DNA from: Rhizobacter sp. Root1238
GTDB taxonomy: Bacteria; Pseudomonadota; Gammaproteobacteria; Burkholderiales; Burkholderiaceae_C
NCBI RefSeq assembly: GCF_001425825.1
Contig: NZ_LMDM01000020.1
Span: 84,979 to 145,323 of the forward strand
Direction: 5' to 3'
DNA: 60,345 nt
Position numbers and translations under genes: made by a program. The notes under the pieces were generated by a model. That model was not told the origin of the DNA. It ran no database searches and saw nothing but the letters and a program-made list of their open reading frames with translations. Position 1 is the stretch's first letter. Each line of letters starts with the position of its first letter. Below, piece after piece: positions 20,661 through 51,436 of this stretch.

Positions 20661-20706
20661 CTTCCCATGTTCATGGGAAGCGCGTGCCGCAACGACTCCC
20701 TAGCAT
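20661..20706 (+). promoter_or_regulatory. Promoter P1: palindromic activator box and -10 element, lipid cluster
   Basis: CTTCCCATGTTCATGGGAAG (20661-20680) is an inverted repeat with 9-bp perfect arms around TT. The -10 TAGCAT is at 20701-20706, exactly 38 bp from the first T of the 16-bp core. The box is therefore centred near -42.5, overlapping the -35 region, as for class II activators. Downstream are the winged-helix regulator and the ACP-desaturase-ligase-SPT-SDR genes. Confidence 0.85.
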
Positions 20707-20799
20707 CAGGCCGCGCTACGCCGCCTCGGCCATCCGCAGTCGAGGGAGGCGTCCACGGACCCACCATGCGCGACGATGTTGCGCGAAGGAAGCCTGACG

Positions 20800-21516
20800 A
20801 TGTCGCAGCAATGCCAGTACGTCTTCCCGCCGTTCCGACTGGATCCGCTCGACGCGACGCTGTGGCGCGATGACGAACGCGTTCCGTTGACGGCGAAGAA
20901 CTTCGCGTTGCTGTCGTACCTGGTGACGCACGCGGGACGGTTGGTCACGCACGATGAGATTCTCGACGCTGTCTGGGCCCATCGCTGCGTCAGCCCGTCC
21001 GTGCTGAAGGGCGCCGTCGCGAGACTGCGCGCGGCCCTGGCAGACGATGCGAAGCAGTGCCGCTTCATCCAGACCGTCAACCAGCGCGGGTATCGCTTCG
21101 TGGCGAACGTGGACGTCTGCCCGCGTGGCGAGTCTCGGCCGCAGCCCGGGACCGATGACGCCGGCGCCGCCGCAGGTCCATCGAATCGGTTTCGGCACGA
21201 GGCGCCGGGCCGGGAGCTCGAACGTGTTCTGCAGGCAGCCCCGCACGCGGGTCCGCGCATCGTGGTCCTGACGGGCGAAGCCGGCTCCGGCAGGTCGGCC
21301 CTGGTCGAGATGCTGCTGCGCGATCCGATCGGCATCCCTGCGCCCTGGGCTGCGCTCGGCCTCGGCGACTGGTGCTCGCTCATCGAAGCGCTCTGTCGCG
21401 AGCAGCGGCTGATGATCGTGATCGATCCGGCTCACTGGAACGGCGCCGGCGGAAGTTCGATCGGCGCGACGCGGTGCCCGCCACAAGGGTCGGGACTCGG
21501 ACGGCACGTCGAATGA
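20800..21516 (+). CDS. Short OmpR-type winged-helix regulator with truncated P-loop domain
   Basis: About 238 aa. N-terminal OmpR/PhoB-like winged helix (about 5-105: LLSYLVTHAGRLVTHDEILDAVW, RGYRFVANV), then a linker and the beginning of an ATPase: Walker A GEAGSGRSALVE and a Walker B-like LMIVIDPAHW, after which the protein soon ends. Related CadC/AfsR-like regulators are much longer (STAND ATPase plus repeats), so this one looks C-terminally shortened. ATG 20800 is preferred over 20776 because AAGGAAG precedes it. It is the first gene behind promoter P1 and may relay or fine-tune the same regulon. Confidence 0.75.
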   Translation: MSQQCQYVFPPFRLDPLDATLWRDDERVPLTAKNFALLSYLVTHAGRLVTHDEILDAVWAHRCVSPSVLKGAVARLRAALADDAKQCRFIQTVNQRGYRFVANVDVCPRGESRPQPGTDDAGAAAGPSNRFRHEAPGRELERVLQAAPHAGPRIVVLTGEAGSGRSALVEMLLRDPIGIPAPWAALGLGDWCSLIEALCREQRLMIVIDPAHWNGAGGSSIGATRCPPQGSGLGRHVE

Positions 21517-21617
21517 ACCCAGATGTGACGTCGACGAGACCACGCGGCGCGGCTCGCGGCCTATCGTTCCTGCACGCCCAGCGCCAGCGCGCCGGGTCCC
21601 AACCGCGAGGAGTCACC

Positions 21618-21917
21618 ATGTCGAACAAGAGCTACGCGCTGCAAGACGTGCAGGACTGCGTCATCCAGGCCCTGGCGAAGCAGGCAGGCTGCGAGGCGCG
21701 GGCCATCGGCCCGCAGCATTCGTTGAAGCACCTGGGCCTCTCGTCCATCGAGGCCACGGCGTTTGTCGGCCACATCGAGGAATCCCTCGACCTGATGCTG
21801 GACCTGACGATCCTGTATGACCATGCCACGGTCGAAAGCCTCACCCGATACCTGTTCGATCGGCTGGTGGCCAAGACCGCCGCCACCGCCGTGGCCGTGC
21901 CGGCCGGCCTGGACTGA
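21618..21917 (+). CDS. Acyl carrier protein (lipid cluster)
   Basis: 99-aa acyl carrier protein. The 4'-phosphopantetheine attachment motif reads HLGLSSIEA (normally LGxDS), with Ser43 the expected modified residue; a Ser replaces the usual Asp before it. GAGGAGTCACC precedes the ATG. It is followed by a desaturase and a fatty acyl-AMP/ACP ligase, so it probably carries a fatty acyl chain dedicated to this pathway rather than to primary fatty-acid synthesis. Confidence 0.88.
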   Translation: MSNKSYALQDVQDCVIQALAKQAGCEARAIGPQHSLKHLGLSSIEATAFVGHIEESLDLMLDLTILYDHATVESLTRYLFDRLVAKTAATAVAVPAGLD

Positions 21918-21959
21918 TGCGGCGTCCACGCCATCCCCTTCACGACCCGGGAGCCACCG

Positions 21960-22853
21960 ATGCCGATCGTTGAACCGAATCGCGATCTCTACGTCGTCCT
22001 GCGGCCACAGGCCCACCGGAAGGAGCGGCTGGCGATCGCGGCAGCCGTGCTGGTGTCGACGGTCATGGGCCTGGCCGCGATTCCGTGCGCCTTCGTGTGG
22101 GGGGTGTCCGGCCTGGATGCGGGACTCTTCGTCCTCTTCTACCTCGCCAGTGGATTGGGCATCACCGTCGGCTATCACCGCCTCTTCGCGCACCGCAGCT
22201 TCCGAGTGGGCCCGTTCTGGCGCGCGCTGCTGGCGGTGTTGGGCTACACGGCGGGGCAGGGGCCGGTGGTGTACTGGGTGGCCCACCATCGCCTGCACCA
22301 CGCCCGCACGGACACCGACTCCGATCCCCACAGCCCCATCGACCAGACCGGCGGCGTCAGCGCGCGATCGTTCCTGCACGCCCATGTCGGCTGGATGTTG
22401 ATGAACAGGAAGGCCAACGCCGGCGCATTGGCGCCCGACCTGCTGAGGGATGCGGCCCTGGTGCGGCTGGAGAAGCACTACCTGCGGATCCACGTGGCGT
22501 CGATCCTGTTGCCCGGCGTCATCGCGGCACTGGTGACCGGGTCGCCGGCGGCCGCCGCGAGTGCCGTGCTGTACGCCGGGTTCTTTCGGCAATTTGCTGT
22601 GCTGCAAGTGGTCTACGCGATCAACTCCGTCTGCCACGCCTTCGGACGGCGCAGCCACGAAACGGATGACGCCAGCAGAAACGTCTGGTGGTTGAGCGTG
22701 TTGTCGCTGGGCGAGTCCTGGCACAACAGCCACCACGCGAACGCCGGGGCGGCCAATTTCGGCCGGCACTGGTACGAGATCGACATCGGCTATGCCGCCA
22801 TCCGGTTGCTCGCCGCACTGGGCGTGGCGACGGAAGTCGTCCGCGTCAAATGA
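21960..22853 (+). CDS. Membrane fatty-acid (delta-9-type) desaturase
   Basis: 297-aa membrane di-iron desaturase. The three histidine boxes are present: HRLFAH (His73 on), HHRLHH and WHNSHHA, with hydrophobic segments between. It would introduce a double bond into an acyl-CoA or acyl-ACP, here plausibly on the adjacent ACP. GGGAGCCACCG precedes the ATG. The last bases overlap a possible start of the ligase gene (ATGA at 22850). Regiospecificity is not decided by sequence. Confidence 0.9.
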   Translation: MPIVEPNRDLYVVLRPQAHRKERLAIAAAVLVSTVMGLAAIPCAFVWGVSGLDAGLFVLFYLASGLGITVGYHRLFAHRSFRVGPFWRALLAVLGYTAGQGPVVYWVAHHRLHHARTDTDSDPHSPIDQTGGVSARSFLHAHVGWMLMNRKANAGALAPDLLRDAALVRLEKHYLRIHVASILLPGVIAALVTGSPAAAASAVLYAGFFRQFAVLQVVYAINSVCHAFGRRSHETDDASRNVWWLSVLSLGESWHNSHHANAGAANFGRHWYEIDIGYAAIRLLAALGVATEVVRVK

Positions 22854-22885
22854 ACATCGGCGGACATCGATTCGTGGAGCCCAAG

Positions 22886-24655
22886 ATGCCCATGCGCCAT
22901 GCATTTGCCGAATCCCTGACCCAACTGCTGGCCGCACGAGCATTCCAGTGCGGTGGTCGCGTGGCCTATCGCTTCCTGGCGCGCGATGCCGACGGCGATC
23001 CGTCGATCACCTACGGCGAACTGCATGAACGTGCGCAGCGGGTTGCGGCTTCGCTGCAGGCCGCCGGCCTGCGCGGCGAACGCGTCCTGCTGTACGTCGG
23101 CACCAGCGTGGACTTCCTCGTCTCGTTCTTCGGGATCCTGCTGGCCGGCGCCGTCGCGGTCCCGTTGAGTCCGCCCCACTTGTCGCGCGCGCTCGCGCGC
23201 TCCGAATCCATCGTGCGCAACGCCGGGGCCAGGATGGCCATCGTGCCCGGCACGATGCTGAAGCGATTCGTGCAACTGCAGGCGAGCAACGAAGCCTTTG
23301 CCGCGCTGCAGTTGACAACGCCGGACGAGCTCGCCGCCGGCACCTCCGGCCGCTGCATCGACGCGACGGCCTCCAGCGAATCGCTGGCCGTGCTCCAGTA
23401 CACCTCCGGATCCACCGCGACGCCCAAGGGCGTCTGCATCAGCCACGGCAACTTCCTGCACAACGCGGCGATGATCAGTCGGGCGATGGGATTGAGCGAG
23501 CGCACCGTGGGTGTCAGCTGGTTGCCCCTGCACCACGACATGGGCCTGATGACGGGCGTGATCGGTCCGCTCTTCAATGGCTGCCTGATGACGCTGATGC
23601 CGGCCAGCGCATTCGTGTCCGACCCGCTGGCGTGGCTGAAGGCCCTGACGCGGCAACGGGCCACGGTCACCGGTGCGCCGAACTTCGCGTACGAGTTGTG
23701 CCTCGAGAAGGTGCTCCCCGAGCAACTCGCCGACCTCGACCTGAGCAGCCTCGAAGTGGCCTTCTGCGGTGCCGAAACCGTGTGCGCCGACACGTTGACG
23801 CGATTCGCATCGCGTTTCGAGGCCTGCGGTTTTCGCAGCCGTTCGTTCTTTCCATGCTACGGGCTCGCCGAGGCGACCTTGATGGTGTCGGGCGGGCCTG
23901 CAGGCGAGGCGGCACGCTTCGTCACCGTGGCCACGTCCGCACTCGGGCAGGGCCGCGTCGCCGCCCCCCGGGCCGACGAGCCGGCGCAGCGGCTGGTGAG
24001 TTGCGGACAGGCGCTGGCCGGCCTGGATGTGGCCATCGTGGACACGGACACCCTGCGGCCGTGCCCCGCGGACCGGGTGGGCGAAGTCTGGGTCCGTGGC
24101 AGCAGCGTCGCGCGCGGCTATTGGGGCCTGCCGTCGGAGACCGAGGCGGTCTTCAACGCCCGGATGGCCGGGGAGGGCGGCGCAGGGTTCCTGCGCACCG
24201 GCGATCTCGGCTTTGTTCGGGACGGCGAACTGACGATCGTCGGGCGCCTGAAGGAATTGATCGTCATTTGCGGCGTCAACCACCACCCGCAGGACATCGA
24301 GGCGACCGTCGAGACCTGCCATCCGGCGATCGGCCGGCATGCCGGCGTCGCGCTGCCGTTGGAAGAGAACGGGCGCGAGTCGCTGCTGATCGTGCAGGAG
24401 ATCAAGCGGACATGGCGCAGCGATCCCCAGCCCGTCCTCGACGCCATCATGGCCGAGGTCGCGCAGCGGCACGGCATACGTCCCGCCGTCGTGGTGCTGG
24501 TCAGCCACGGCAGCCTTCCCCGGACCACCAGCGGAAAGCTCCAGCGCTGCGTCGCGCGCGCAGCCCACCTCGGCGGCCGCCTCGATGTGGTGGCCCGCAG
24601 CGACGTGCCCGCGCCCGGGCCGGGCCCCTTGCATCCCCAACCGGTCGCCGCCTGA
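22886..24655 (+). CDS. Fatty acyl-AMP ligase / acyl-ACP synthetase
   Basis: About 589-aa ANL-superfamily ligase of the FAAL type. AMP-binding motif YTSGSTATPKGV (a Gly-to-Ala change inside), WLPLHHDMGL, the CYGLAEATL adenine-binding motif and GDLGF; FAAL-like AFCGAETV segment. It would activate a fatty acid as acyl-AMP and load it on the ACP two genes upstream. Start is ambiguous: ATG 22886 has GGAG at good distance, while ATG 22850 overlaps the desaturase stop. Ligase, ACP and SPT-like enzyme together parallel known bacterial sphingolipid loci. Confidence 0.87.
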   Translation: MPMRHAFAESLTQLLAARAFQCGGRVAYRFLARDADGDPSITYGELHERAQRVAASLQAAGLRGERVLLYVGTSVDFLVSFFGILLAGAVAVPLSPPHLSRALARSESIVRNAGARMAIVPGTMLKRFVQLQASNEAFAALQLTTPDELAAGTSGRCIDATASSESLAVLQYTSGSTATPKGVCISHGNFLHNAAMISRAMGLSERTVGVSWLPLHHDMGLMTGVIGPLFNGCLMTLMPASAFVSDPLAWLKALTRQRATVTGAPNFAYELCLEKVLPEQLADLDLSSLEVAFCGAETVCADTLTRFASRFEACGFRSRSFFPCYGLAEATLMVSGGPAGEAARFVTVATSALGQGRVAAPRADEPAQRLVSCGQALAGLDVAIVDTDTLRPCPADRVGEVWVRGSSVARGYWGLPSETEAVFNARMAGEGGAGFLRTGDLGFVRDGELTIVGRLKELIVICGVNHHPQDIEATVETCHPAIGRHAGVALPLEENGRESLLIVQEIKRTWRSDPQPVLDAIMAEVAQRHGIRPAVVVLVSHGSLPRTTSGKLQRCVARAAHLGGRLDVVARSDVPAPGPGPLHPQPVAA

Positions 24656-24667
24656 AAGGAGCTGCAC

Positions 24668-26020
24668 GTGCTGGATCAATCCGAGAACTGCGACAACCCG
24701 GTGGCCACGATGACGCACGCTGAGCACGCTGAACACGAGCGTCGCACGACGACCCGGGGCCCGATCGACTCGCGGCATTCGAGCCTGTACGAGTTCCTCG
24801 TCGCGTCGCAACAGGATGCCTTGGCATTCACCGAGCGCTTCGACCAGTTGTCGGAGTACGTCGACGACCTGATGCGCCGCAGGCACTACCACTACCGGCG
24901 CGTGAGAACCAGCGGCTCGTCCGGGTTCGCCACGCTGCAGGACCGCGACAGCGGGCGCGTCGTCGAGGTGGTCAACCTGGCGTCGAACGACTACCTGGAC
25001 CTGTCCCAGCACCCGGCGACCATCGCGGCCAGCATCGCGGCGACCCGGCGCTACGGCGCCGGAACCAGCGCGTCGCCCGCCGCCATCGGCAACACCGACC
25101 TGCACGAGAGGCTGGAGCGCGAGCTCGCCGACTTCACGAACTGCGAAGCCGCGCTGCTGTACAGCTCCGGCTTCGGCATGAACTGCGGCGTGCTGTCGGC
25201 GCTGTTGCGGCGCAACGACCTCGCCATCGTGGACAGCTGCGTGCATGGCAGCGTCATGGAAGGTTGCCGCGGCGCGCCGATGCGGATCTTCGAGCACAAC
25301 GACCTCGACTCGCTCGAGCGCATCCTGGTGCGCTCGCGAGGCCAGTACGTCAATCGGCTGGTCGTCGTCGAGGGCGTGTACTCGATGGACGGCGACCTGG
25401 CGCCGCTGGCGGACATCGTCGAGCTCGCACGCCGCCACGGCGCGATGCTGATGCTCGACGAGGCGCATTCCACCGGCGTGTTCGGCGCTGAAGGGCGAGG
25501 CACCGCCGAGCACTTCGGCATCCTCGGCCAGGTCGACATCGTGGCCGGCACCTTCAGCAAGAGCCTGGGCAGCGTCGGCGGCTTCGTGGCGGGGTCGCGC
25601 CGGCTGATCCGCTACCTGCAGATGGCCAGCCGGCACTACGTGTTCTCGGCATCGGTGCTCCCGTGCGTCGCGGCTTCGGTCCTGGAGGCCCTTCGCATCC
25701 TCAAGGACGAGCCCGCGATCCGCGAGCGCCTGTGGCGCAATGTCGAGCACTTCGGGCGCGGATTGCGTGCCCACGGCTTCGACATCGGGGCCGGCGCCTC
25801 GGCCATCTTTCCGGTCATGGTCCGCGACGATCTGAAAGTCAAGGCGCTTTGCAGCTGCCTCTATGACGACGGCATCGTCGTCACACCGGTCGTGTTCCCG
25901 GGGGTGCCCGAGAAGCAGTCCCGCATCAGGCTGAGCGTGACCAGCGGACTGGAGCTGCAGCACATGGACCATGCCCTGGAGCGCCTGGCACACCACGCCA
26001 AGGCACTGCAGATCATCTGA
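24668..26020 (+). CDS. Serine palmitoyltransferase-like alpha-oxoamine synthase
   Basis: 450-aa PLP enzyme of the alpha-oxoamine synthase family (SPT, AONS, KBL, CqsA). PLP features: DEAHSTGVFG and Schiff-base Lys298 in GTFSKSLGSVGGF. The FSKSxGxxGGF form is that of serine palmitoyltransferases rather than CqsA or KBL. It has an N-terminal extension of roughly 100 residues before the NLASNDYLDL motif. Start is GTG 24668 with AAGGAG 7 bp away. It would condense an amino acid, probably serine, with an acyl thioester to give a 3-keto amine; the next gene would reduce it. Confidence 0.87.
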   Translation: MLDQSENCDNPVATMTHAEHAEHERRTTTRGPIDSRHSSLYEFLVASQQDALAFTERFDQLSEYVDDLMRRRHYHYRRVRTSGSSGFATLQDRDSGRVVEVVNLASNDYLDLSQHPATIAASIAATRRYGAGTSASPAAIGNTDLHERLERELADFTNCEAALLYSSGFGMNCGVLSALLRRNDLAIVDSCVHGSVMEGCRGAPMRIFEHNDLDSLERILVRSRGQYVNRLVVVEGVYSMDGDLAPLADIVELARRHGAMLMLDEAHSTGVFGAEGRGTAEHFGILGQVDIVAGTFSKSLGSVGGFVAGSRRLIRYLQMASRHYVFSASVLPCVAASVLEALRILKDEPAIRERLWRNVEHFGRGLRAHGFDIGAGASAIFPVMVRDDLKVKALCSCLYDDGIVVTPVVFPGVPEKQSRIRLSVTSGLELQHMDHALERLAHHAKALQII

Positions 26021-26052
26021 GCACGTGCAGACACTGCACCAAGGAGACGTCG

Positions 26053-26850
26053 ATGGGTCGAATTCGCAATTCAGACACGGTCCTGATCGTCGGGGGGTCG
26101 CAAGGCATCGGCCTGGCCATTGCGCGGCGGCTGTGCGTGTTGGACTGCCGGATCGTCATTGCCGCGCGGCACGTCGCGGCCCTGGACCAGGCGCGCGCCG
26201 AGCTGGCCGGCATCGCCGGCAGCCGCGCCACCATCGAGACGCTGGTGGTCGATGTCTGCCGCCACGACAGCGTGCTGGCCCTGCGCGATGAGCTGATCGC
26301 CCGGATCGGCACGCCCACCCATGTCATCAATTGCGCGGGGAGGGCGGTCGCCGCCTATCTCGAAGAGCAGCCGCTGGAGGACTATCGCTCGATGATGGAC
26401 CTGAACTTCATGGGCACCGTCCACCTCAGCCATGCGTTCCTGCCGCTCTTCCGCGCGCGAGGAAGCGGCCATCTGATCCATGCGTCCTCGATCCTCGGTT
26501 TCGTGGGCTCGTTCGGTTGGGCCGCCTATGCCGCGACCAAGTTCGCCGTGGTCGGCTATTGCGAATCGGTCTACTCCGAGTACCGCAGGCACGGCGTCGA
26601 GGTCTGCGTGCTGTGCCCACCGGCCACCCTCACGCCGGGATTCGACACCGAGAACAAGACCAAGCCGGCCGCGGTGCGCGAGGCCGAAGCCTGGATCGAG
26701 CCGGTGACGGCAGACTACGTGGCACGCGCTCTCCTCAATGCCATCGCCCGCAAGCGCTTCATGGTGGTTCCCACGCTGAAGGGGCGCTTCCTCTACCGCG
26801 CCACGCGCTGGTTGCCCGGTCTCGTGCGTCACCTGGCGGCAGCCCGCTGA
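26053..26850 (+). CDS. Short-chain reductase, 3-ketosphinganine reductase-like
   Basis: 265-aa classical SDR: NAD(P)-binding GGSQGIG (about 15-21), active-site Ser in SSILGF, Tyr159 and Lys163 in YAATK. The segment TPGFDTENKTKP matches the signature of eukaryotic 3-ketodihydrosphingosine reductases (TPGFxxENxTKP). Placed 32 bp after the SPT-like gene, it most likely reduces the 3-keto product to a sphingoid-type base. A hydrophobic C-terminal stretch may associate it with membrane. Function is strongly suggested by motif and neighbour but not proved. Confidence 0.87.
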   Translation: MGRIRNSDTVLIVGGSQGIGLAIARRLCVLDCRIVIAARHVAALDQARAELAGIAGSRATIETLVVDVCRHDSVLALRDELIARIGTPTHVINCAGRAVAAYLEEQPLEDYRSMMDLNFMGTVHLSHAFLPLFRARGSGHLIHASSILGFVGSFGWAAYAATKFAVVGYCESVYSEYRRHGVEVCVLCPPATLTPGFDTENKTKPAAVREAEAWIEPVTADYVARALLNAIARKRFMVVPTLKGRFLYRATRWLPGLVRHLAAAR

Positions 26851-27161
26851 TCCCGATTCCCCGGTCGCTCGCGATCGAAGGAACGGAAGGAACTGAAGGA
26901 ACCCAACGACGTAACAGGCCGTAAAACACTCGCGAAGCGGCCGTTCCTGCATGTCCCCCGCAGGCGGCGCGCGGCTGATGTCGCGGGGCAGCGACGTCCC
27001 AACGCGTCCCGCGAACATGTGAGCGCAGGGTGCAAGGTGGGGACGGACATCGGCTGACTTCGGGCTTAAGCTCCCGTCATGCAGTACGCCGCGTGGTCCT
27101 TCTCCGAATCGCTTTTGATATTTCGATGGGGTCGGCGTCACCGCACGCACCGGACCTGTTG
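26851..27161 (+). promoter_or_regulatory. Leader region of second sensor kinase with weak box
   Basis: This 311-bp stretch has no convincing gene. A GGAACxGAA micro-repeat lies at 26879-26905. At 27007-27022 the minus strand reads TCACATGTTCGCGGGA, 13 of 16 matches to the regulon palindrome. CTTAAGCTCC at 27065-27074 recurs before the response regulator (17974) and may be part of a -10 region. Box-to-CTTAAG distance is 58 bp here versus 54 bp there. Confidence 0.35.
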
Positions 27162-29000
27162 ATGACGATGGGACGCCGCCTGCGCGTGCTGATGGCCGCG
27201 TGGTTGCTGGCTGACGCAGCGCATGCCGCTGGCGTCGTCGCGCTGTCGCCACCGAAGAACGTCGTGTCCATCGCGGACCTGGAAGCCGTCGTGTCCGTGA
27301 GCGAACAGCCACCACCCGACACCGCGGACTGGCGGCCGGTCCGGCTGCCTGACCGCTGGGCAGAAAACGGCCGGGCGCGCGCAGGGACCGTGTGGTACCG
27401 GCTGCGCGTTCACATCGATCCCGGGCAGCGCGACCTGTGGGCCTTCGAAGTGGCCTACGCGACGATGAACAGCGACCTGTGGGTCAACGGGATGCTGGTC
27501 GGGAGCGCCGGGCGCATGGAACCGGGCAACCTGACGCGTCACTGGAACACACCGCTTCTGTTCACGGTTCCGTCATCGGCATGGACGGCAACGGACAACC
27601 TGGTCTACCTGCGGGTGCGCTGCGGGACCAGCAGCGACGGCGGCCTGGGCCACCTGTTCGCGGGGCCGGCCGATGAGCTCTCGAAGGTCCATGAGCAACG
27701 CGTCTTCTGGCGAACCGGCCTGCTGACCGTCGCCGACGCCTACATCTTTGCGCTCGGGGTGCTGTTCGCGATCATCTGGTTGCGCCGCCGCGAAGCCCTG
27801 CAATACGGCTATTTTGCGGCGGCGACTCTGTTGTGGGCCGTCTGCACGAGCAACGACCTCCTCAGCGACCCGCCGTTGTCGCAGCATGCCTGGCAGGTGT
27901 TGATCTTCGTCTGCAACATCTGGACAGCGCTGTTGTTCGCGCTGTTCTTCCTGCGTTTCGCGGGCCGGGTATTGCCGCGCCTGGAGCGCGGCGCGATCGG
28001 CTTCGTGCTCGTTGCCAACGCGGTGCAGATCCTGGTCAACCCGGACTGGCAGCAGATCGCCTTCGCGGTGGCGATCCTCGGTGTGCTGCTGCTGTGCGGC
28101 TGGGCGACCGTCGTGCTGCTGTCCGATGCGCAGGGCCGGTCGCGGCGCGACCGGCTGTTGCTGGGCATCGCCGCTGCCATCGGGATGGTCGTCGGAGCCC
28201 ACGACTGGCTGCTCACGATCTTCGTCCTGCCGTTCGACGGGACTCACCTGGTGGCCTACGCCGCTCCGCTGGTGCTGTCGATCTCGGCGTGGGTGATTGC
28301 CGGCGACTACACCCGCGCCCAGGAGGACCTGGCACGGTTGAATCGCCAGCTCGCCGATCGCGTGCGGCAGCGCGAGGTGGAACTGCGCGCGTCCTTCGCC
28401 CACCTCGCCGAGGCCGATCGCGATTTCGCGGTGGCGACCGAACGGGCGCTCGTGCTGCGCGATCTGCATGACGCCGTCGGCACCCGCCTGGCCATTGCCA
28501 TGCGGCAACTCGAAGAGGAGCGCGCCGCACCGCTGACGGTCGCCCAGACGCTGCGCGAGACGCTGGACCGGCTCAAGCTGCTGATCGATGCGCTGACCAT
28601 GCCGCCCGGCGACGTCAATGCGTTGCTGGCCAGCTTGCGCTATCGCCTGCAAAGGCGCATCGAAGCCGCCGGACTGGACCTGCGCTGGGAAGTCGATCGG
28701 CTGCCGCACTGGGAAGCCGGCGAGCATGGCGACACGATGCGCCGCCTGCAGCGGCTGTTGCTCGAGGCGATATCGAACACCCTGCGACACTCGCAGGCCA
28801 CCGAACTGCACCTGGCGGCGAGCGCCACCGATGGCGGCATCCGCGTCGCGCTCACGAACAACGGACGTGGCCTGGACGACGTGCCGGTCGCAGGGCTGCG
28901 AACGATGCACGAGCACGCGGTCGGGCTCGGTGCCGTGCTGGAGATCGGCTCGACCGACCTCGGCGGTTCCATCCGGCTGATGCTGCCGCCGACCCGTTGA
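27162..29000 (+). CDS. 7TM (DISM-type) sensor histidine kinase, paralogue 2
   Basis: About 612-aa sensor with the same architecture as the kinase at 18700: signal peptide (LMAAWLLADAAHA), periplasmic beta-sandwich (GTVWYRLRVHI, DLWVNGMLVG, RHWNTPLLF, the last shared word for word with paralogue 1), seven TM helices, HisKA_3 with His in RDLHDAVGTRL, and HATPase_c (EAISNTLRHSQA, NNGRG). No response regulator adjoins it, so it may feed the regulator at 18012. Start chosen at ATG 27162, where the signal peptide begins; 27126 is possible; no clear ribosome site. Confidence 0.83.
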   Translation: MTMGRRLRVLMAAWLLADAAHAAGVVALSPPKNVVSIADLEAVVSVSEQPPPDTADWRPVRLPDRWAENGRARAGTVWYRLRVHIDPGQRDLWAFEVAYATMNSDLWVNGMLVGSAGRMEPGNLTRHWNTPLLFTVPSSAWTATDNLVYLRVRCGTSSDGGLGHLFAGPADELSKVHEQRVFWRTGLLTVADAYIFALGVLFAIIWLRRREALQYGYFAAATLLWAVCTSNDLLSDPPLSQHAWQVLIFVCNIWTALLFALFFLRFAGRVLPRLERGAIGFVLVANAVQILVNPDWQQIAFAVAILGVLLLCGWATVVLLSDAQGRSRRDRLLLGIAAAIGMVVGAHDWLLTIFVLPFDGTHLVAYAAPLVLSISAWVIAGDYTRAQEDLARLNRQLADRVRQREVELRASFAHLAEADRDFAVATERALVLRDLHDAVGTRLAIAMRQLEEERAAPLTVAQTLRETLDRLKLLIDALTMPPGDVNALLASLRYRLQRRIEAAGLDLRWEVDRLPHWEAGEHGDTMRRLQRLLLEAISNTLRHSQATELHLAASATDGGIRVALTNNGRGLDDVPVAGLRTMHEHAVGLGAVLEIGSTDLGGSIRLMLPPTR

Positions 29001-29031
29001 GCCGGTCATCCGGGTCGCACCCGGGTTGGCG

Positions 29032-30222
29032 TCACACCGGTCCCTGCTGCAACTCCCTGCGGAGCTTCGCCCGGTCGACGCCATCGGCACTTTGCACGAC
29101 CAGCAGATGGAAGAACTCCGCCCGGGTGTGCGCCCGGCCGGCGGCCCTCTTGACCACCACCGCGGCAATCGGCCCCATCTGGCTCGCCAGCACGCGGCAT
29201 GCGTGGGCCAGCACATCAGGGCCCAGGGGTTCGCTGCCGGTGACGTCGGTGGTGCCGAAACACGAGTCCAGGCCCGCCCACGATGTCGTGATGGTGGCGT
29301 CGGCGAACCACGGCGCGGCCAGGGCCTGCACCTCGATGCCATCGACGCAGGACGAGATCGCGGGCGCCACCTCGGAGCGTTTCGACAGTGCGTCGCGAAA
29401 CTGCGCGGCGCTTGCGAACCGGGCGCCCGGGTCCTTGGCCAGGGCCGTCGAGACGATCGAGTCGTAGAAGGCATGCCGGGTCGTCGTCGCGGTCGCGCTC
29501 GGCACCGGTGGATCGTCGTCCAGCGTTGCGCGCATCACCGACCGCGAGCGCCCCTTGAACGGCACCTCGCCGGTCAGCAGCCGGTACAGCAGCACGCCGG
29601 CGGCGAAGATGTCCACGCGATGGTCGAGCCCCCCTGCGGTGTACTGCTCCGGGGCCATGTACCCCGGCGTTCCGACCCCGGGGCTTCCCTGCGTCAGTGC
29701 GACGTCTTCGACGCGCGCAATGCCGAAGTCGGCGAGCTTGACCTCGCCCCGCGGCGTGACGATCAGGTTCTCGGGCTTGATGTCCCGGTGCCAGACGCCG
29801 TGCCGGTGCACGCACTCCAGCGCGTCCAGCAACTGGTCCATGATGCGCAGCACCTCGGCCTCGGACAGCAGCGGCGTGTGCGACAGGATCCGTCCGAGGC
29901 TGCGCCCTTCGACCAGTTCCATCGCGATGAAGGCGCAGGCGTCGTCCTCGCCGTATTCGTAGATGGCCACGATGCCGGGGTGGGACAGCCGGCCGACCGC
30001 TCGCGCTTCGTTCCTGAAACGCGCCGCGACGAGGGCTGCCGTCCGGTCGTGATCGAGGAGCTTCCGCAGGATGACCTTGATGGCCACCGGCCGCTGAATC
30101 GCCGGATCGAAGGCTCGATAGACGACGCCCATCGCGCCATGTCCCAGTACGCCGGTGATGGCGTATTTGCCAACGTGCGCAGGGTGAAGGGCACGCCGGG
30201 GCGCATCAGCAAAGTCGATCAT
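29032..30222 (-). CDS. Hanks-type Ser/Thr protein kinase
   Basis: 396-aa cytosolic kinase. Kinase domain about 20-285 with Gly loop GHGAMGVVY, Lys in VAIKVI, catalytic HRDIKPEN, metal-binding DFG, and APEQ. The last ~100 residues (CVDGIEVQALAAPWFADATIT... to LRRELQQGPV) form a conserved-looking domain I cannot name. No transmembrane segment is seen. Its start lies 31 bp from the -10 element of promoter P2, which carries the same palindromic box as the lipid operons, so the kinase is probably co-expressed with them. ATG 30222 has only a weak ribosome site. Confidence 0.88.
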   Translation of the reverse strand: MIDFADAPRRALHPAHVGKYAITGVLGHGAMGVVYRAFDPAIQRPVAIKVILRKLLDHDRTAALVAARFRNEARAVGRLSHPGIVAIYEYGEDDACAFIAMELVEGRSLGRILSHTPLLSEAEVLRIMDQLLDALECVHRHGVWHRDIKPENLIVTPRGEVKLADFGIARVEDVALTQGSPGVGTPGYMAPEQYTAGGLDHRVDIFAAGVLLYRLLTGEVPFKGRSRSVMRATLDDDPPVPSATATTTRHAFYDSIVSTALAKDPGARFASAAQFRDALSKRSEVAPAISSCVDGIEVQALAAPWFADATITTSWAGLDSCFGTTDVTGSEPLGPDVLAHACRVLASQMGPIAAVVVKRAAGRAHTRAEFFHLLVVQSADGVDRAKLRRELQQGPV

Positions 30223-30252
30223 CGAGCGTCCAGCAGTGGGGGCCGTGGTCCG

Positions 30253-30296
30253 ATGGTAGGGAGTCGCCGGCGCTCGCACCTGCCATGAATATGGGA
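30253..30296 (-). promoter_or_regulatory. Promoter P2: activator box and -10 element of the Ser/Thr kinase
   Basis: On the minus strand the box reads TCCCATATTCATGGCA (30296-30281; 14 of 16 matches to the consensus). A -10 TACCAT follows at 30258-30253 within TCCCTACCATCGG, nearly the same context as P1 and P3 (CCCTAGCATCAG, CCCTAGTATCGG). Box-to-minus-10 distance is again 38 bp. Confidence 0.75.
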
Positions 30297-30372
30297 AGCG
30301 ACGCGTGGGAAAGGCTGATGAAATGGCCGCCACTGCAGCTTCACCGTTGCCGACCTGCCCGCAACGCGCACG

Positions 30373-31098
30373 ATGGCCATCAACTACTACCCGGTCGCTG
30401 CCCCGGATCGCATGCGCTCTCACTTCGGCGTGGTGCCGCCTGGGGGTGACATGGCGGCACGAAGTCTCCCGCGCTATCTCGCGCCATTCATCTCGCGGGC
30501 GCCGGATGGGATCCGGCCCGGGCGCGACAGGCCGCGCTGCGGCTGCGAGCCTTCTTCGTGTCGTTGCAAGACGTTGACGCTCGGCCGGCGCGCCCAGGAC
30601 GCGCCGGCCGACATCGCCGGTGAGCTGGCCTTGTTTCGCGGGGCGTGGCATCGCGGTCAACGCTGCATCGTCCCCACCGAGGCCATCTACGAACTCGACT
30701 ACCAGACCGGCAGGCCGGTTCGGTGGCGCATCACCCGCCGCGATCGCGCGCCGATGGGGATTGCCGGCCTCTGGCGCTGGTGGACGGACAGCACGACCGG
30801 CGAGGAAGTCCCCAGTTTCACGATGCTCACCGTCAACGCGGACACGCACCCGCTCATGATGCAGTTCGGCAAGCCATGGCAGGAAAAGCGGATGGTCGTC
30901 ATCCTGGACGAGGCGGACCACGACGCCTGGCTCAGCTGTCGCGCCGAGCAGATGATGAGCTTCATGCAGCCGTATCCGTCCGACCAGCTGACGGCAGAGC
31001 CCTGGCCCAAGGGCCGTTCGGGTGCCACGCCCACCTGGCCCGGCGGCATCACCGTTCTCTGGGACGCCGAGCGTCTTCCGGCAGGCGAAGAGGGGTGA
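30373..31098 (+). CDS. Divergent SRAP (YedK/HMCES-like) protein lacking catalytic Cys2
   Basis: 241-aa protein clearly related to SOS-response-associated peptidases, which protect abasic sites through a thiazolidine formed by Cys2. Family motifs CIVPTEAIYELD, MGIAGLWRWW, FTMLTVNADTHPLM and KRMVVIL are present. However, the protein starts MAINYYP where relatives start MCxNYxP, so Cys2 is absent, and the internal segment that normally holds the NARxE motif (about residues 50-90) is replaced by an unrelated Arg/Cys-rich stretch. It may be a decaying gene or one with a different role. The weak start context leaves the N-terminus slightly uncertain. Confidence 0.7.
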   Translation: MAINYYPVAAPDRMRSHFGVVPPGGDMAARSLPRYLAPFISRAPDGIRPGRDRPRCGCEPSSCRCKTLTLGRRAQDAPADIAGELALFRGAWHRGQRCIVPTEAIYELDYQTGRPVRWRITRRDRAPMGIAGLWRWWTDSTTGEEVPSFTMLTVNADTHPLMMQFGKPWQEKRMVVILDEADHDAWLSCRAEQMMSFMQPYPSDQLTAEPWPKGRSGATPTWPGGITVLWDAERLPAGEEG

Positions 31099-31161
31099 CT
31101 CTCCAGGCTGCTGGCGGTCATTCCTGCCGCGCGGCCTCCACGGCGTCGAAGGTGAGCCCGC

Positions 31162-31878
31162 TCAGCCGGCCTGCGCCGTGAAGTAGTCCGGATGCGCCAG
31201 GCGGATCGCGTCGATCTGCCCCAGCGTGCCGGAGAGGTGATCACGCAAGCTCGCCTGCGCCGCGGCAACGTCGCCGCTGGCGATGGCGTCGACGATGCGG
31301 CGGTGGTCGCGCACGATCGCGCGCTGCTTGCCGAGGGAGGGCAGGTTCAGCATGCGCAGGCGGTCGACGTGGCCGCTGTGCTTGCGCACCAGGTCGAACA
31401 GGTCCGGCACGCCGGCGGCGACATACATCAGCCGGTGGAACGCCCGGTCGGCCGCGATGAAATCGAGGTAAGCCGTGCTGCCCGTCAACGCCGTCTGCAC
31501 GTCGATCTGCGCGCGCAACTGGCTGAGCAGCACGGCGTCGGCATGCCCGGTCAGGGTGAGCACCACCTCGGCCTCGATGGAACGGCGCAGGAACTGCGCC
31601 TGCGTGGCAGCCGCCGCATCGATGCGGCTCACGACCGTGGCGTGCTGCGGAAAGATGTCGACCAGGCCCTCTTCGCCGAGCTTGATCAGCGCATCGCGAA
31701 CCGGCGTCTGGCTGAGGCCGAAGTGCGCCGCCAGGTCGGCCCGCGACAGCACCGTTCCCGGGGCCATCTCCAGCGACAGGATCAGGTCGCGCAGGCGCTC
31801 GAAGACCTGCGGCGCCGCATGGCGCGAGCGATCCAGGGCAGCGGAACGGCTGGGGGACGAGGCAGGCATGGCGCTCAT
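31162..31878 (-). CDS. GntR-family regulator (FCD subfamily)
   Basis: About 238-aa repressor: N-terminal GntR winged helix (LRDLILSLEMAPGTVLSRADLAAHFGLSQ, then TPVRDALIKLGEEGL) and a helical FCD ligand-binding domain with the expected metal-binding Asp/His residues (DRAFHRLM, DHRRIVDAI, LRDHL). Divergent from the TctC-type receptor; a perfect palindrome lies between them. ATG 31878 chosen; GTG 31908 would place the start inside the operator. It probably controls the receptor and the glucarate-dehydratase-type enzyme in response to a sugar acid. Confidence 0.88.
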   Translation of the reverse strand: MSAMPASSPSRSAALDRSRHAAPQVFERLRDLILSLEMAPGTVLSRADLAAHFGLSQTPVRDALIKLGEEGLVDIFPQHATVVSRIDAAAATQAQFLRRSIEAEVVLTLTGHADAVLLSQLRAQIDVQTALTGSTAYLDFIAADRAFHRLMYVAAGVPDLFDLVRKHSGHVDRLRMLNLPSLGKQRAIVRDHRRIVDAIASGDVAAAQASLRDHLSGTLGQIDAIRLAHPDYFTAQAG

Positions 31879-31905
31879 TCTAGCGGCGGGGTCGGCGCAT
31901 TGACA

Positions 31906-31921
31906 CACTAATATATTAGTG
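31906..31921. promoter_or_regulatory. Palindromic operator between GntR and TctC genes
   Basis: CACTAATATATTAGTG is a perfect 16-bp palindrome in the divergent intergenic region. A TTGACA -35-like hexamer (31900-31905) abuts it on the plus strand. AT-rich palindromes of this kind are typical of FCD-type GntR regulators, so it is probably the autoregulatory operator for both directions. Confidence 0.7.
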
Positions 31922-31987
31922 CTTCACTTCGGGTCAGCGAGCCCCGCCCATGCAGCGCGGCCCCCATTGCCACCACCGGAGACTGCC

Positions 31988-32998: not shown

Positions 32999-33017
32999 GA
33001 TTGCCACGAGACCCGCC

Positions 33018-34292: not shown

Positions 34293-34327
34293 GCGGCGTT
34301 GCGGGCGAGTCTCGAGTCCTGCCCGGC

Positions 34328-38739: not shown

Positions 38740-38872
38740 TGCTTGGGTGCTTCCGGGTTGATGTCTTGCACGCAGTGTCGAGACAACCGGGCCAGCGAGC
38801 TATCAAGAAATTTCAGAAGCAGCGAACGTGGCTTGGCGGACAATTTCCGCTGCTTGCGACAAGGAAACTGCC

Positions 38873-40440: not shown

Positions 40441-40451
40441 GGGACATGCAC

Positions 40452-47098: not shown

Positions 47099-47100
47099 GC

Positions 47101-47436: not shown

Positions 47437-47559
47437 TGTCCGCGGGTGAGGGTCGCCTTGCCGTCCCCAGACGCCGCGTGCGCTGATGGGACACGGATGC
47501 GCTGCGGCAAGCGCTGACGAATCTCTCCGGGGCCGCTGACAGAACCTGGCCGAGCGAAG

Positions 47560-47976
47560 ATGCGCACCGCATTCTCGGCCGTGCGCACGGAGCTTGCGGA
47601 CAAGGGCCTGTGGAACATCCAGACGGTGCCCACGGATCCCGCGCAGATGCAGTGGCTGAAGAGGTACTGGTACCAGTCCTTCGACGAGTGGTACATCACC
47701 CAGAAACTGCACCGCTTCGCACTGGGCAAGCTGCGGAAGTCCTACTACCGGGCAGCCATCTCCCACGCACACCAGAACGAGGCGCTGCGCCAGGCGCTGG
47801 TGCTGGCCGAGCTCGACAGCAAGAACCCGATCGATGCCGAGTTCGTTGCCGTCGTGAGGGGCTTGGGAGGTGCGTCTGCCATGAATGCGGCGCCAAAGGC
47901 AGCCAAGTCAACGCTGGAGTCCTTCCGGCGAACGGTCCCATGTTCATGGGACGCATGGGCCGACGTGGATCCCTAG
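47560..47976 (+). CDS. Hypothetical protein, possibly a gene remnant
   Basis: Open frame of 138 codons with GC-biased third positions. The protein is rich in aromatic and charged residues (WLKRYWYQSFDEWYITQKL, FALGKLRKSYYRAA) and has no motif I recognise. Its last dozen codons run through the palindromic box of promoter P3 and reach the -10 element, suggesting that the true 3' end was lost when the regulatory region was placed here. No ribosome site is evident. The rest of 47437-48149 holds only promoter P3 and leader sequence. Confidence 0.35.
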   Translation: MRTAFSAVRTELADKGLWNIQTVPTDPAQMQWLKRYWYQSFDEWYITQKLHRFALGKLRKSYYRAAISHAHQNEALRQALVLAELDSKNPIDAEFVAVVRGLGGASAMNAAPKAAKSTLESFRRTVPCSWDAWADVDP

Positions 47977-47979
47977 TAT
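47936..47979 (+). promoter_or_regulatory. Promoter P3: activator box and -10 element of the acyltransferase operon
   Basis: TCCCATGTTCATGGGA (47936-47951) is a perfect 7-bp-arm palindrome identical to the core at P1 and P4. The -10 TAGTAT is at 47974-47979 in CCCTAGTATCGG, 38 bp from the box start, exactly as in the other three promoters. The predicted leader to the acyltransferase ATG is about 165 nt. Confidence 0.85.
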
Positions 47980-48149
47980 CGGATGCATGGCGTGAAAGCC
48001 AGCATCAATGGCAGGCGAACTGGCAACGCCCGCGAACCATCATGGATCGGAGAACTCGTGAACGTTCCGCAATCGCTATTGGCCTTCTTGCGTCTGGCCG
48101 CAACGAGCAAACGGGCTCCAAATTGAAACAAAAGTGGTGGCCAATTCAC

Positions 48150-49277
48150 ATGAATACCCTCCTGAGATTCATATTCAGGGCGCTGACACTAATTTACCCC
48201 GTCGGCGTCTTCACTAAAGAAGCAAGAACAATCGAAGAAAGACGAGCCGTCTATCGATTTCGATACTCCATTTATTCCAAGGAGCTAAATAGAGATGTAG
48301 AAGGAGTCAATCACAGAGAAGAAATGGTTAGAGATGAACTGGATGAATTGGAGTTCACCAAGGTCTTCTATACAGGATCAATCAACAAAATAACCTCAAC
48401 CATTCGCTTCTTGATTTTTGAGAAGAACTCCTTGACAAAAGAGTTGGTCGACGAATACTCATTGAGTGACTTTGAAGAAATACGCAATCACCCGATCATA
48501 TTTATTGGTCGATTCATGATAGCCAAGAATCTCAGGGGCGGATTTTTTTCCATCAAGGTACTAATTACATTGCTCCATCACCTCGTCGCGAAGTACGAAC
48601 CAAAGGCCATGCTCGCGTCCTGCAAACCAGGCCTTGTCCCCCACTATCGCAAATTCGGCCTGTTCCCATACACCAGCAAATTCGTCGTCTATCCTGATGG
48701 AATTGAAATACCTCTTCTTGGGGTTGCCGATAGAAGACTTCTAGTCGACAGAGGATGTTTCATAGCCTTACTGGTGAAGAATCAGCACCTCTCGAACTTC
48801 AGCCAGGCAGTGGACCGCATCGATTCGTATCGCGGCACAATCGTTGAGCCGGCTGAAATAGAAGGAAGGTTGATTGAGTTTTATGGGCAAAACGAAATCC
48901 TGACTCGAACCCTTCCTTTGATAGACGCCAAGGATATTGCAAGACTTGGGGCCTATCTGCTCGATATAAAGACTCCTACAAAGATAATTCACAAAGGAAT
49001 TGTCGAGCCCTCGGTCTATTTTGTGCTGAGTGGGTCTGTAACCATCAGGACCGAGAGCGGGTCTTCTTCAGAAGAATCCGGAGCGCTGATTGGACTTCAG
49101 GAATACTTCTCATCGTCAAAGATCAGAAAATACGAGGCGATCTGTGTCAATGCGTCCCTTCTGGTGATGACCAAAGGATCACTCGACAAGCTCTTCAAAA
49201 CTCACCGTTCGCTGCGGAGTATTTTTCATTCATTGCAAACTTCCAGAGCAGTGGAAAGACCGCTCAGCTATGAGTGA
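48150..49277 (+). CDS. FeeM/autoinducer-synthase-like N-acyltransferase fused to a cyclic-nucleotide-binding-like domain
   Basis: 375 aa. The N-terminal ~210 residues resemble the GNAT-related N-acyl amino acid synthase/autoinducer synthase fold (ERRAVYRFRYSIYSKEL, IFIGRFMIAKNLRGG, PHYRKFGLFPYT); such enzymes transfer a fatty acyl group from acyl-ACP to an amine or amino acid. The C-terminal part (about 265-355: DIKTPTKIIHKGIVEPSVYFVLSGSVTIR) is a Crp/cNMP-binding-like beta-roll, suggesting allosteric control. Codons are clearly AT-richer than the surroundings. No strong ribosome site at 48150; ATG 48042 in the same frame is possible. It overlaps the next gene by 8 bp. Confidence 0.65.
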   Translation: MNTLLRFIFRALTLIYPVGVFTKEARTIEERRAVYRFRYSIYSKELNRDVEGVNHREEMVRDELDELEFTKVFYTGSINKITSTIRFLIFEKNSLTKELVDEYSLSDFEEIRNHPIIFIGRFMIAKNLRGGFFSIKVLITLLHHLVAKYEPKAMLASCKPGLVPHYRKFGLFPYTSKFVVYPDGIEIPLLGVADRRLLVDRGCFIALLVKNQHLSNFSQAVDRIDSYRGTIVEPAEIEGRLIEFYGQNEILTRTLPLIDAKDIARLGAYLLDIKTPTKIIHKGIVEPSVYFVLSGSVTIRTESGSSSEESGALIGLQEYFSSSKIRKYEAICVNASLLVMTKGSLDKLFKTHRSLRSIFHSLQTSRAVERPLSYE

Positions 49278-50175
49278 TCAATTCAAAATCCCTGAAGTGG
49301 ACTTCAAGGCTCTGAGTTGGGACGATTTTTCCCGCGAATACTTTGAACCCGAAGCGCCTCTGCTGATCAGAAACGTGGGAACTCACCTTGACAGCCTTCG
49401 CAGGGTCACCTCAGAGGTGGTACACGATAGACTGGTAAAGAAGGGGCTTATCAATAGGAGCACGTATTGGTACGAGGGGAGGGGCCCTGAGCTAGAGGAC
49501 TATTTTGAGATTCCCAAGCTTGTGAGAAATTCGCTTGGAAGGTCTTTTGTGAGAGAGCGGTTCTGCAGAATCTGGACCAGCACAGTTGGGCACGTCACTC
49601 CTTGGCACTACGATGGAAACTTCGTCTACGTTTTCAATTTGCAGGTCAAGGGCAAGAAACATTGGCGAATTGTTTCCCCAGAGACACCGGTCAGTGTCTA
49701 TCCATTCAGAAGGATAGCCAGATTGATAGATGATGCCGAGCTGATAGGGCCCTCTCGGCTATCCGCAGAATTTGAGTTGAACGAAGGCGATATGGTATTC
49801 CTGCCGCCCCTCTGGTTTCACAAGGTGACCTCGATTGGAACTGAAAATATCAATGTAAATTGGGTGGCCACAAAGCAAGACGATTATAAAAGGAGCAGAC
49901 TCTTCCACAGAGAGATTGAGTTGCTGAAACTGGGGATCCTGTTTACCAAAGTTGCGGGTCGGAGAAGGGTCGTTGATACACTTCTTGGCGAAGGAGTTGA
50001 CGATTACCTGGAGAATTTTGGCGGTGTTGGATTCAAATTTGTCGAGTCGATTACGAGCGAAGTCTCAAACGCTCGCGCATTGGGCCGGCTTGCAAAGGAA
50101 GCGATGGCCGTTCCCTTTGTATATCTTGATCGAAGGAGCATCAAGACAACCCGGGCAGCTTTCAAGCAAGTCTAA
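49270..50175 (+). CDS. Cupin/JmjC-like Fe(II)/2-oxoglutarate dioxygenase
   Basis: 301-aa cupin_8-type protein. The iron-binding facial triad is visible: HxD in TPWHYDGNF and the distal His in PPLWFHKV, with FELNEGDMVFLPPLW forming the second cupin motif. It would hydroxylate a small molecule or a lipid head/tail, presumably the acyltransferase product. Low-GC like its neighbours. Overlaps the acyltransferase stop by 8 bp, so coupled. Confidence 0.78.
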   Translation: MSDQFKIPEVDFKALSWDDFSREYFEPEAPLLIRNVGTHLDSLRRVTSEVVHDRLVKKGLINRSTYWYEGRGPELEDYFEIPKLVRNSLGRSFVRERFCRIWTSTVGHVTPWHYDGNFVYVFNLQVKGKKHWRIVSPETPVSVYPFRRIARLIDDAELIGPSRLSAEFELNEGDMVFLPPLWFHKVTSIGTENINVNWVATKQDDYKRSRLFHREIELLKLGILFTKVAGRRRVVDTLLGEGVDDYLENFGGVGFKFVESITSEVSNARALGRLAKEAMAVPFVYLDRRSIKTTRAAFKQV

Positions 50176-50187
50176 CGAGGAATCAAG

Positions 50188-51372
50188 ATGGCGATATTCT
50201 GTGCATTATCTGTCTTCGTCACTGGCTTGGTCTTTGTGTTTGTATTGCTCCAGTATAAATCTCTTCGGGATAGCATAGACTTGGGTGACCCCATGCTTTC
50301 GGAGGGGAGGGGAGCCCCGCCTCCAAAGGTGTCCATAGTCATACCCGCTTACAACGAAGAAGAAAACATCAGAGGGTGCGTACTTTCGGCCCTGGAGGAT
50401 TCTGAAGGTCAGTCCATTCCCCATGAAGTCATTGTAGTGGATGACCTGTCTGTAGATAAGACGTGGAAAATCCTGGTCGCTTTGAGAGATGAAATCAAGA
50501 ACCCTCGACTTAAAATTGTAAGAGGGGAACCCAAGGACTCAGGCCAGCCTTGGCAGCTGGGGAAGTCATGGCCGTGTCAGCAGGGTGCGGATATCGCATC
50601 AGGCGAGTATCTTTTGTTTGTCGATTGTGATGTCAGATTAAAAAGCGGCGCAGTCGCAAGGCTTGCGCACGAGATGTCGGCCTGTCAGCTGGATTTACTC
50701 CTGGTCCGACCGAAAGTAGTGTGCAGAAGCCTCGCAGAAAAGATGTTTTTGTCGAATTACTACAGCGTCCTGCTTTTCTATTACCAATCATCTCGGGTGA
50801 ATGATCCAAAGAGCAAATCTGCTGCAGCCGTAGGGCAAGTCATGATGTTCTCCAGGAAGTGTTACGACATGATCGGCGGGCATAGAAGTGCTCCTCACCC
50901 GGTATTGGAAGATGGCTTTCTGGCCAAAGCGGTGAAGACGTCCGGTTTTGCCCTCAAGTATTGCACTGGAAAGCTGCTGTGCGAAATGACTCCATACAGT
51001 TCATTTCGAACCCTATGGGAGGGACAGACCAAGGAACACTATATCGCCCTTGGGTTCAGCAAGACAAGAACAGCGGTCTATTCGATGGGCATATTTTCAG
51101 TATTTTCGATGCCGTTCATATTGATCGGTTATGGGCTGATTGAGTTGAAGTTGTTTCATGACCAGGCTTTTGCTGGTTTTCTGGCTTTCCACCTATTTTC
51201 TCAGTACCTCATGAGGAGATTTGTGTATCTCTATGTCGGTATAACTCCGACGTATTGGTGGTTAAATGGGTTGAGCGGCTTGTTTACAGCAAGCCTTTTC
51301 ATTGCTTCGATGATAAAAGTGGAGACCGGGATATTTTGGACATGGAGAGGGAAAAAGATGAGGCTGGATTGA
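50188..51372 (+). CDS. Membrane glycosyltransferase family 2
   Basis: 394-aa inner-membrane GT2. N-terminal TM helix (about 3-22), catalytic domain with VSIVIPAYNEEENI, VVDDLSVDKT, the DxD metal site in FVDCDVRL, and HPVLEDGFLAKAV (ED general base region); two or three C-terminal TM helices. Topology resembles CruC-type and other lipid-linked glycosyltransferases, so it may add a sugar to the hydroxylated acyl product. CGAGGAATCAAG precedes the ATG. Last gene of the low-GC operon. Confidence 0.82.
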   Translation: MAIFCALSVFVTGLVFVFVLLQYKSLRDSIDLGDPMLSEGRGAPPPKVSIVIPAYNEEENIRGCVLSALEDSEGQSIPHEVIVVDDLSVDKTWKILVALRDEIKNPRLKIVRGEPKDSGQPWQLGKSWPCQQGADIASGEYLLFVDCDVRLKSGAVARLAHEMSACQLDLLLVRPKVVCRSLAEKMFLSNYYSVLLFYYQSSRVNDPKSKSAAAVGQVMMFSRKCYDMIGGHRSAPHPVLEDGFLAKAVKTSGFALKYCTGKLLCEMTPYSSFRTLWEGQTKEHYIALGFSKTRTAVYSMGIFSVFSMPFILIGYGLIELKLFHDQAFAGFLAFHLFSQYLMRRFVYLYVGITPTYWWLNGLSGLFTASLFIASMIKVETGIFWTWRGKKMRLD

Positions 51373-51392
51373 AATCGTTCTGCGTGGGCTTA

Positions 51393-51436
51393 TCCCATGT
51401 TCATGGGAAGCCTGGGCGGGCTGCACTTCATAGCAT
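51393..51436 (+). promoter_or_regulatory. Promoter P4: activator box and -10 element of the esterase-ACP-KAS operon
   Basis: TCCCATGTTCATGGGA at 51393-51408 is identical to the P1 and P3 cores. TAGCAT at 51431-51436 is 38 bp downstream, the same geometry as P1-P3. The leader to the esterase ATG is about 125 nt with no other gene in it. Confidence 0.85.

Follow-up and report, generated by a model that had tools for sequence, protein, structure and literature searches.

A 16-bp palindrome as candidate operator of a NarL-type two-component system situated within a lipid gene locus of Rhizobacter sp. Root1238

The output domain of the Escherichia coli response regulator NarL binds as a dimer to 7-2-7 sites; at two genes that NarL activates, sites of this kind span -40 to -49 (napF) and -38 to -47 (yeaR) (PMC4549865). 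Here, we describe a 16-bp palindrome, TCCCATGTTCATGGGA, that precedes four promoters in a 60,345-nucleotide stretch of the Rhizobacter sp. Root1238 genome (contig NZ_LMDM01000020.1; the whole stretch is referred to as "the window", and all positions are window positions). The same window codes for a NarL/FixJ-type response regulator (RR, gene at 18012), which is proposed to bind the palindrome.

The system resembles the E. coli NarL operators of napF and yeaR (PMC4549865) in having a protein with Response_reg and GerE domains, inverted heptamers that are 2 bp apart, and a site in the -40s. It is unlike E. coli NarL in its half-site, which is TCCCATG here as compared to the engineered NarL site TACCCCTAAAGGGGTA given in the same account. 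It also differs in its kinase, which is of the 7TMR-DISM type. RR has a receiver domain (Pfam PF00072, E=5.2e-19) and a C-terminal GerE (LuxR-type) helix-turn-helix domain (PF00196, E=1.2e-15), but it scores only 96.9 bits against the NCBIfam model for NarL (PRK10651, cut-off 250), so that it is NarL-type but not NarL. Cluster-situated two-component regulators, described mainly from Streptomyces, are similar in that the regulator genes lie inside the locus that is controlled. The present case is from Burkholderiales, however, and concerns a lipid pathway. The locus shares with the Caulobacter ceramide/phosphosphingolipid genes an enzyme of the serine palmitoyltransferase (SPT) family in a bacterial lipid pathway, but here this enzyme is accompanied by a fatty acyl-AMP ligase (FAAL), a desaturase, a FeeM-like acyltransferase, a GT2 glycosyltransferase and a dedicated two-component system. 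A search of open-access literature gave no occurrence of the operator strings, and for the combinations searched (bacterial sphingolipid genes with two-component control; 7TMR-DISM with NarL), no literature was found. As far as this literature goes, a NarL-type two-component regulon situated within its locus is a known kind of system, while the present example is new, as are its operator and its connection to a rare lipid locus.

Judged from the DNA, the palindrome is quite probably the operator of RR, which would then belong to a two-component system of the NarL family that is cluster-situated and autoregulated and that switches on four promoters, in each case from a 7-2-7 site centered at -42.5. 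The association with RR is comparative: the site is found before most of the closer RR relatives, and strong copies in this genome are restricted to this locus.

Three exact copies of the palindrome are on the plus strand (20663-20678, 47936-47951 and 51393-51408), and one that matches in 14 of 16 bases is on the minus strand (30296-30281, reading TCCCATATTCATGGCA). By sequence, it is an inverted heptamer pair (TCCCATG and CATGGGA) with a 2-bp gap (TT), hence 7-2-7. When up to three mismatches are allowed, nine matches are obtained in the window, which correspond to six places, as the scan picks up three of the palindromes on both strands. In 100 shuffled windows, the mean was 0.41 matches and the maximum was 4. 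At all four promoters, a TAnnAT element starts 38 bp downstream of the first base of the palindrome (TAGCAT at 20701, TAGTAT at 47974, TAGCAT at 51431, and TACCAT at 30258 on the minus strand). The surroundings of this predicted -10 element read CCCTAnnATCnG in three of the four. Not one of 20,000 random draws of four anchors had TAnnAT at one common offset. The original prediction had listed these copies and this spacing and had called them unlikely by chance; the scan confirms the former, and the shuffles and anchor draws agree with the latter. Around the four sites, identity is at background level (13-24 of 60 positions upstream, 14-25 of 60 downstream). As the flanks are otherwise unrelated, a recent duplication of one promoter does not account for the sites.

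The center of the palindrome is 42.5 bp before the predicted transcription start at each of the four promoters. No recognizable -35 element was found at these promoters (at most two of six matches to TTGACA at a spacing of 16-18). Position alone thus places the palindrome where a class II activator, the site of which is centered near -41.5 and overlaps the -35 or takes its place, is expected to bind. Because the center is at -42.5 and a -35 is not recognizable, class II activation, as already proposed in the original prediction from the position of the site, is the most likely mode.

Two additional sites are imperfect. One of them (TCCCATGAATATGTGA, 17920, 14/16) is 92 bp before the ATG of RR, while the other (TCCCGCGAACATGTGA, 27007, 13/16) precedes a second histidine kinase gene (HK2). 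Downstream of both is a TTAAGCT (17975-17981 and 27066-27072), with TAAGCT beginning 40 and 44 bp past the palindrome; TAnnAT at +38 was not found at either site. The palindrome is asymmetric in its center, with RTTC pointing towards all four targets (20663, 30296, 47936 and 51393) and GAAY towards the RR and HK2 genes (17920 and 27007). The operator at 47936 is inside the 3' end of a 138-residue open reading frame (ORF; 47560-47976) that has no Pfam match and is terminated by the TAG of the -10 element at 47974.

The genome (6,521,465 bases, 50 contigs) was searched for further copies. All palindromes with up to two mismatches are inside this window. The full pattern, palindrome-N22-TAnnAT, is found with up to one mismatch only at the four window promoters. 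At two or three mismatches, four extra readings of the palindromes of the locus itself were obtained, together with one unconvincing site elsewhere. Searching with the split form TCCCATNNNNATGGGA (up to one mismatch) brings in one weak, CGCG-centered palindrome on another contig (C2). Because the full promoter pattern and the strong palindromes are found only at this locus, the regulon is local. Having the regulator and all strong sites in one locus agrees with a cluster-situated regulon. A genome-wide regulon was considered and rejected, as no further strong sites were found across the genome.

Which protein binds was approached through RR relatives in the family, using 399 genomes drawn evenly from a larger group. 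A motif-only scan with up to one mismatch returned matches in 26 genomes, as compared to 1/399 for the reversed control. Among 27 short loci from other genomes that were selected by the motif only (L006-L032), seven have an RR homolog (38-61% identical to the window RR, one of them partial), with the match start 37-102 bp from the motif. Motif copies with up to one mismatch occur in 12 of the 28 genomes with a close RR (own genome included; full-length match, E<=3.3e-66; G132 and G223, with partial matches, were assigned to the others) but only in 14 of the 371 others (p=6e-9).

The upstream regions of 50 RR matches (the best 30 plus 20 chosen from the next ranks, with G134:C14 left out) were also analyzed, taking the start of the match as the gene start. 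Palindrome arms with up to two mismatches are present upstream of 21/29 RR relatives with at least 50% identity (own included) versus 2/21 below 50% (p=9e-6, not corrected for relatedness), and in 15 of 1,550 shuffled upstream regions of 31 loci. The whole 16-mer with up to two mismatches is found upstream of 17/29 closer relatives versus none of the 21 distant ones. Related genomes in the sample (e.g., G070 and G254) are not independent. An exact TATGCT follows 15 of the 23 good-arm sites, at 22, 22, 23, 24, 33 (eight times), 34, 39 and 39 bp. The 22-24 and 33-34 bp groups are one helical turn apart, as would be needed for an activator that contacts RNA polymerase on one face.

In the recognition helix, 27 of the 29 relatives with at least 50% identity have HIK (the others have YIK, L065, and HVK, L081). 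Of the 21 more distant relatives, 12 have HVR and two HIK. This pattern is not used as support. A proposed distinction of paralogs by the Q of this helix turned out to be wrong on recount. RR homologs also occur on plasmids (seven records, at most 48% identity). In one relative locus, two operator-like palindromes that are 30 bp apart precede the RR gene (L116:9764-9809).

The promoter unit itself was traced in other genomes. Palindrome-N22-TAnnnT (up to two mismatches) has 38 matches in 18 of 29 genomes with RR versus three in 3 of 29 comparison genomes (p=4e-5), the 38 including already known sites before RR genes and cases in which a single palindrome is read twice. TAnnnT is intact in 21 and two of the matches, respectively, and the reversed control gives four and two matches. 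The RR set includes two genomes (G113 and G255) that were added because the motif scan had found RR there (17/27 match without them), and the comparison set includes nine genomes that hold only 44-49% paralogs. Downstream genes, as named by eye, include those for a phospholipase-like protein of the outer membrane (L139), a ComEC-like protein (L157), GGGG-rich lipoproteins (L137 and L142, and a third in L154 with an imperfect -10), a secretion-partner protein (ShlB by Pfam; L144) and a secreted protein that has no Pfam match (L110/L145). Some matches have no evident target. An RR-type regulator is also near RNB, TonB-like and transglycosylase genes in L108, and RNB recurs in L112. As a lead, the RR family looks envelope-directed outside this locus. 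The palindrome before closer relatives and the enrichment of the N22 unit in RR genomes support the original guesses of a regulon with activator geometry and of the regulator at 18012 as its activator.

Rhizobacter sp. SG703 (Burkholderiales) has DNA that is 94% identical across window positions 17893-34295. The homology stops at the end of a mandelate-racemase-like gene, and it starts abruptly 27 bp before the RR operator, which argues that the switch has been conserved together with the first block as a single segment. All 16 bases of the RR, acyl carrier protein (ACP) unit and kinase sites are the same in SG703, and the -10-like elements are kept. The RR operator is identical although the adjoining upstream DNA has diverged. 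Palindromes with up to two mismatches in SG703 are confined to the first block.

Several observations weigh against RR-dependent activation from the palindrome. The palindromes before the window's own RR and HK2 genes are imperfect and lack the N22 spacing. The HK2 site varies, being TCCCGCGAACATGTGA in the window versus TCCCATGAACCTGTGA in SG703. A good upstream site is wanting in 8/29 closer RR relatives, and 3/21 distant ones have the 16-mer with three mismatches. In G376, which holds the closest RR in the sample (69%), arms with up to one mismatch were not found in the 19.5 kb around it, the best being CCCCATCTTCATGGGG with two mismatches. The 14 genomes with motif copies outside the close-RR set also belong here. 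Two relatives have a spacing of 39 bp and the window's own RR gene one of 40 bp, neither of which differs from 22 bp by a whole number of turns. Finally, the N22 comparison is not independent, as the RR genomes include ones in which the palindrome was already known.

Another regulator encoded in the locus might bind the palindrome instead (the Trans_reg_C protein at 20800, a GntR protein at 31165 or an AraC protein at 38828), with RR as a mere neighbor or target. The Trans_reg_C gene is indeed the first gene of an operator-bearing unit. In 16 larger loci from relatives (L104-L119, selected because they contain RR genes or copies of the motif), however, a search at E<=1e-8 gave RR homologs in 10, a GntR match in one, and homologs of the Trans_reg_C or AraC protein in none, and a 7-2-7 palindrome suits the NarL/GerE class. 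We regard binding by another regulator as very unlikely. That RR represses from these sites, or activates some promoters and represses others, has a precedent in frdA, which is repressed by NarL and has a 7-2-7 site near its start among its NarL sites (PMC4549865). Repression is unlikely, given that a usable -35 was not found at the four promoters, that the centers are at -42.5, and that most spacings in relatives fall into the two groups separated by about one helical turn, even though the cases at 39-40 bp do not fit.

It is extremely improbable that the copies are a dispersed repeat or a recombination scar without regulatory role. Low-GC genes do lie exactly between the copies at 47936 and 51393, but the flanks are unrelated, on which ground a dispersed repeat was rejected, and the fixed -10 spacing in both orientations and the tie to RR genes in other genera speak against it as well. 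Chance was rejected on the basis of the shuffles, the genome-wide exclusivity and the N22 pattern search.

For activation by RR, binding, phosphorylation, the sign of regulation and the start sites are inferred from sequence. A signal would reach histidine kinase HK1, and perhaps HK2, and HK1 would phosphorylate RR. An RR dimer would bind the inverted heptamers, and the site at -42.5 would replace the missing -35 and recruit RNA polymerase in class II mode. This would activate the ACP-desaturase-FAAL-SPT-short-chain dehydrogenase (SDR) unit, the FeeM-dioxygenase-GT2 unit, the hydrolase-β-ketoacyl-ACP synthase (KAS) unit and the Ser/Thr kinase. The sites before the RR and HK2 genes are further upstream (about -60 and -64) and may serve autoregulation. 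The two-component system would thereby act locally, as a switch dedicated to one lipid pathway. The features are listed in Table 1.

Table 1. Regulators, operator candidates, predicted -10 elements and proposed target genes in the window
Feature	Positions	Strand	Remarks
Operator copy, putatively autoregulatory	17920..17935	.	TCCCATGAATATGTGA, 14/16; 92 bp before RR ATG
NarL/FixJ-type response regulator RR, proposed palindrome binder	18012..18695	+	Response_reg + GerE
Histidine kinase HK1	18700..20640	+	7TMR-DISM and HisKA_3 above Pfam cut-off; HATPase_c below
Operator, exact	20663..20678	+	center about -42.5; motif scan
TAGCAT, predicted -10 of ACP/SPT unit	20701..20706	+	
Trans_reg_C (winged-helix) protein	20800..21516	+	first gene of ACP/SPT unit; short AAA_16 match below cut-off
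Acyl carrier protein	21618..21917	+	start read from frame
Fatty acid desaturase	21960..22853	+	
FAAL-like protein, AMP-binding	22688..24655	+	ORF start; true start probably further in
SPT/AONS-family pyridoxal-phosphate (PLP) enzyme	24668..26020	+	
SDR	26053..26850	+	
Weak operator before HK2	27007..27022	.	TCCCGCGAACATGTGA; TTAAGCT at 27066-27072
Second histidine-kinase-like protein HK2	27030..29000	+	44% identical to HK1; ORF start; Pfam matches below cut-off
Ser/Thr protein kinase	29032..30222	-	start ATG read from sequence
TACCAT, predicted -10 of kinase unit	30253..30258	-	
Operator, 14/16	30281..30296	-	TCCCATATTCATGGCA; motif scan
Operator, exact	47936..47951	+	motif scan
TAGTAT, predicted -10 of FeeM/dioxygenase/GT2 unit	47974..47979	+	
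FeeM/OlsB-like acyltransferase	48042..49277	+	C-terminal stretch like a cyclic nucleotide monophosphate (cNMP)-binding domain; both Pfam scores below gathering cut-off
JmjC/cupin dioxygenase-like protein	49270..50175	+	
GT2 glycosyltransferase	50188..51372	+	nearest models HpnB and CruG, below their cut-offs
Operator, exact	51393..51408	+	motif scan
TAGCAT, predicted -10 of hydrolase/KAS unit	51431..51436	+	
Alpha/beta hydrolase	51569..52399	+	
FabF-type KAS	52611..53903	+	ORF start

The original prediction had counted several ACPs among the targets, but only one is present in the 40 ORFs that were scanned. The Trans_reg_C protein could be a truncated version of a larger, ATPase-linked regulator. 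Judging from the enzyme classes, an N-acylated, glycosylated sphingoid-like lipid is a plausible product of the pathway.

Parts of this pathway are rare. In a pattern-seeded scan covering one genome per species (84,980 species), the SPT-like protein has one close relative, that of SG703 (95%), and the next best among the 20 loci is at 42%. At E<=1e-15, the only match of the FeeM-like protein in the 399 sampled family genomes is the protein itself (1/399), and there is one weak match on a plasmid. A KAS search in seven genomes (E<=1e-60) returned the protein itself and three others at 43-49%; no match at this threshold was found in SG703, G212 or G344. A transposase pair (HTH_Tnp_1 and rve proteins, 53993-55182) lies immediately 3' of the KAS gene. 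The FeeM-dioxygenase-GT2 genes (48042-51372) have a GC content of 46-49% within a window of 67%. The low-GC DNA (40-52% per 200 bp) spans about 48001-51400, between the operator copies at 47936 and 51393. This operon has probably been acquired.

It is tempting to speculate, though this is a tentative reading, that a widespread two-component system, the sites of which in other genera precede the gene of the system itself as well as genes for envelope proteins, lipoproteins and lipase-like proteins, was recruited to be the dedicated switch of a mosaic pathway for a sphingolipid-like glycolipid. Its units, including the foreign low-GC acyltransferase-dioxygenase-glycosyltransferase operon, may have been plugged in one by one behind operator copies at the identical -42.5 position, with the Ser/Thr kinase and the second sensor kinase being part of the circuit.

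The palindrome provides a candidate operator for a NarL-type regulator family for which no printed site was found in the literature searched. It leads to the prediction that four separated units belong to one lipid pathway, the gene content and inducer of which become directly testable. The locus would also illustrate how newly acquired operons are wired to an existing regulator via a 16-bp site at a fixed distance.

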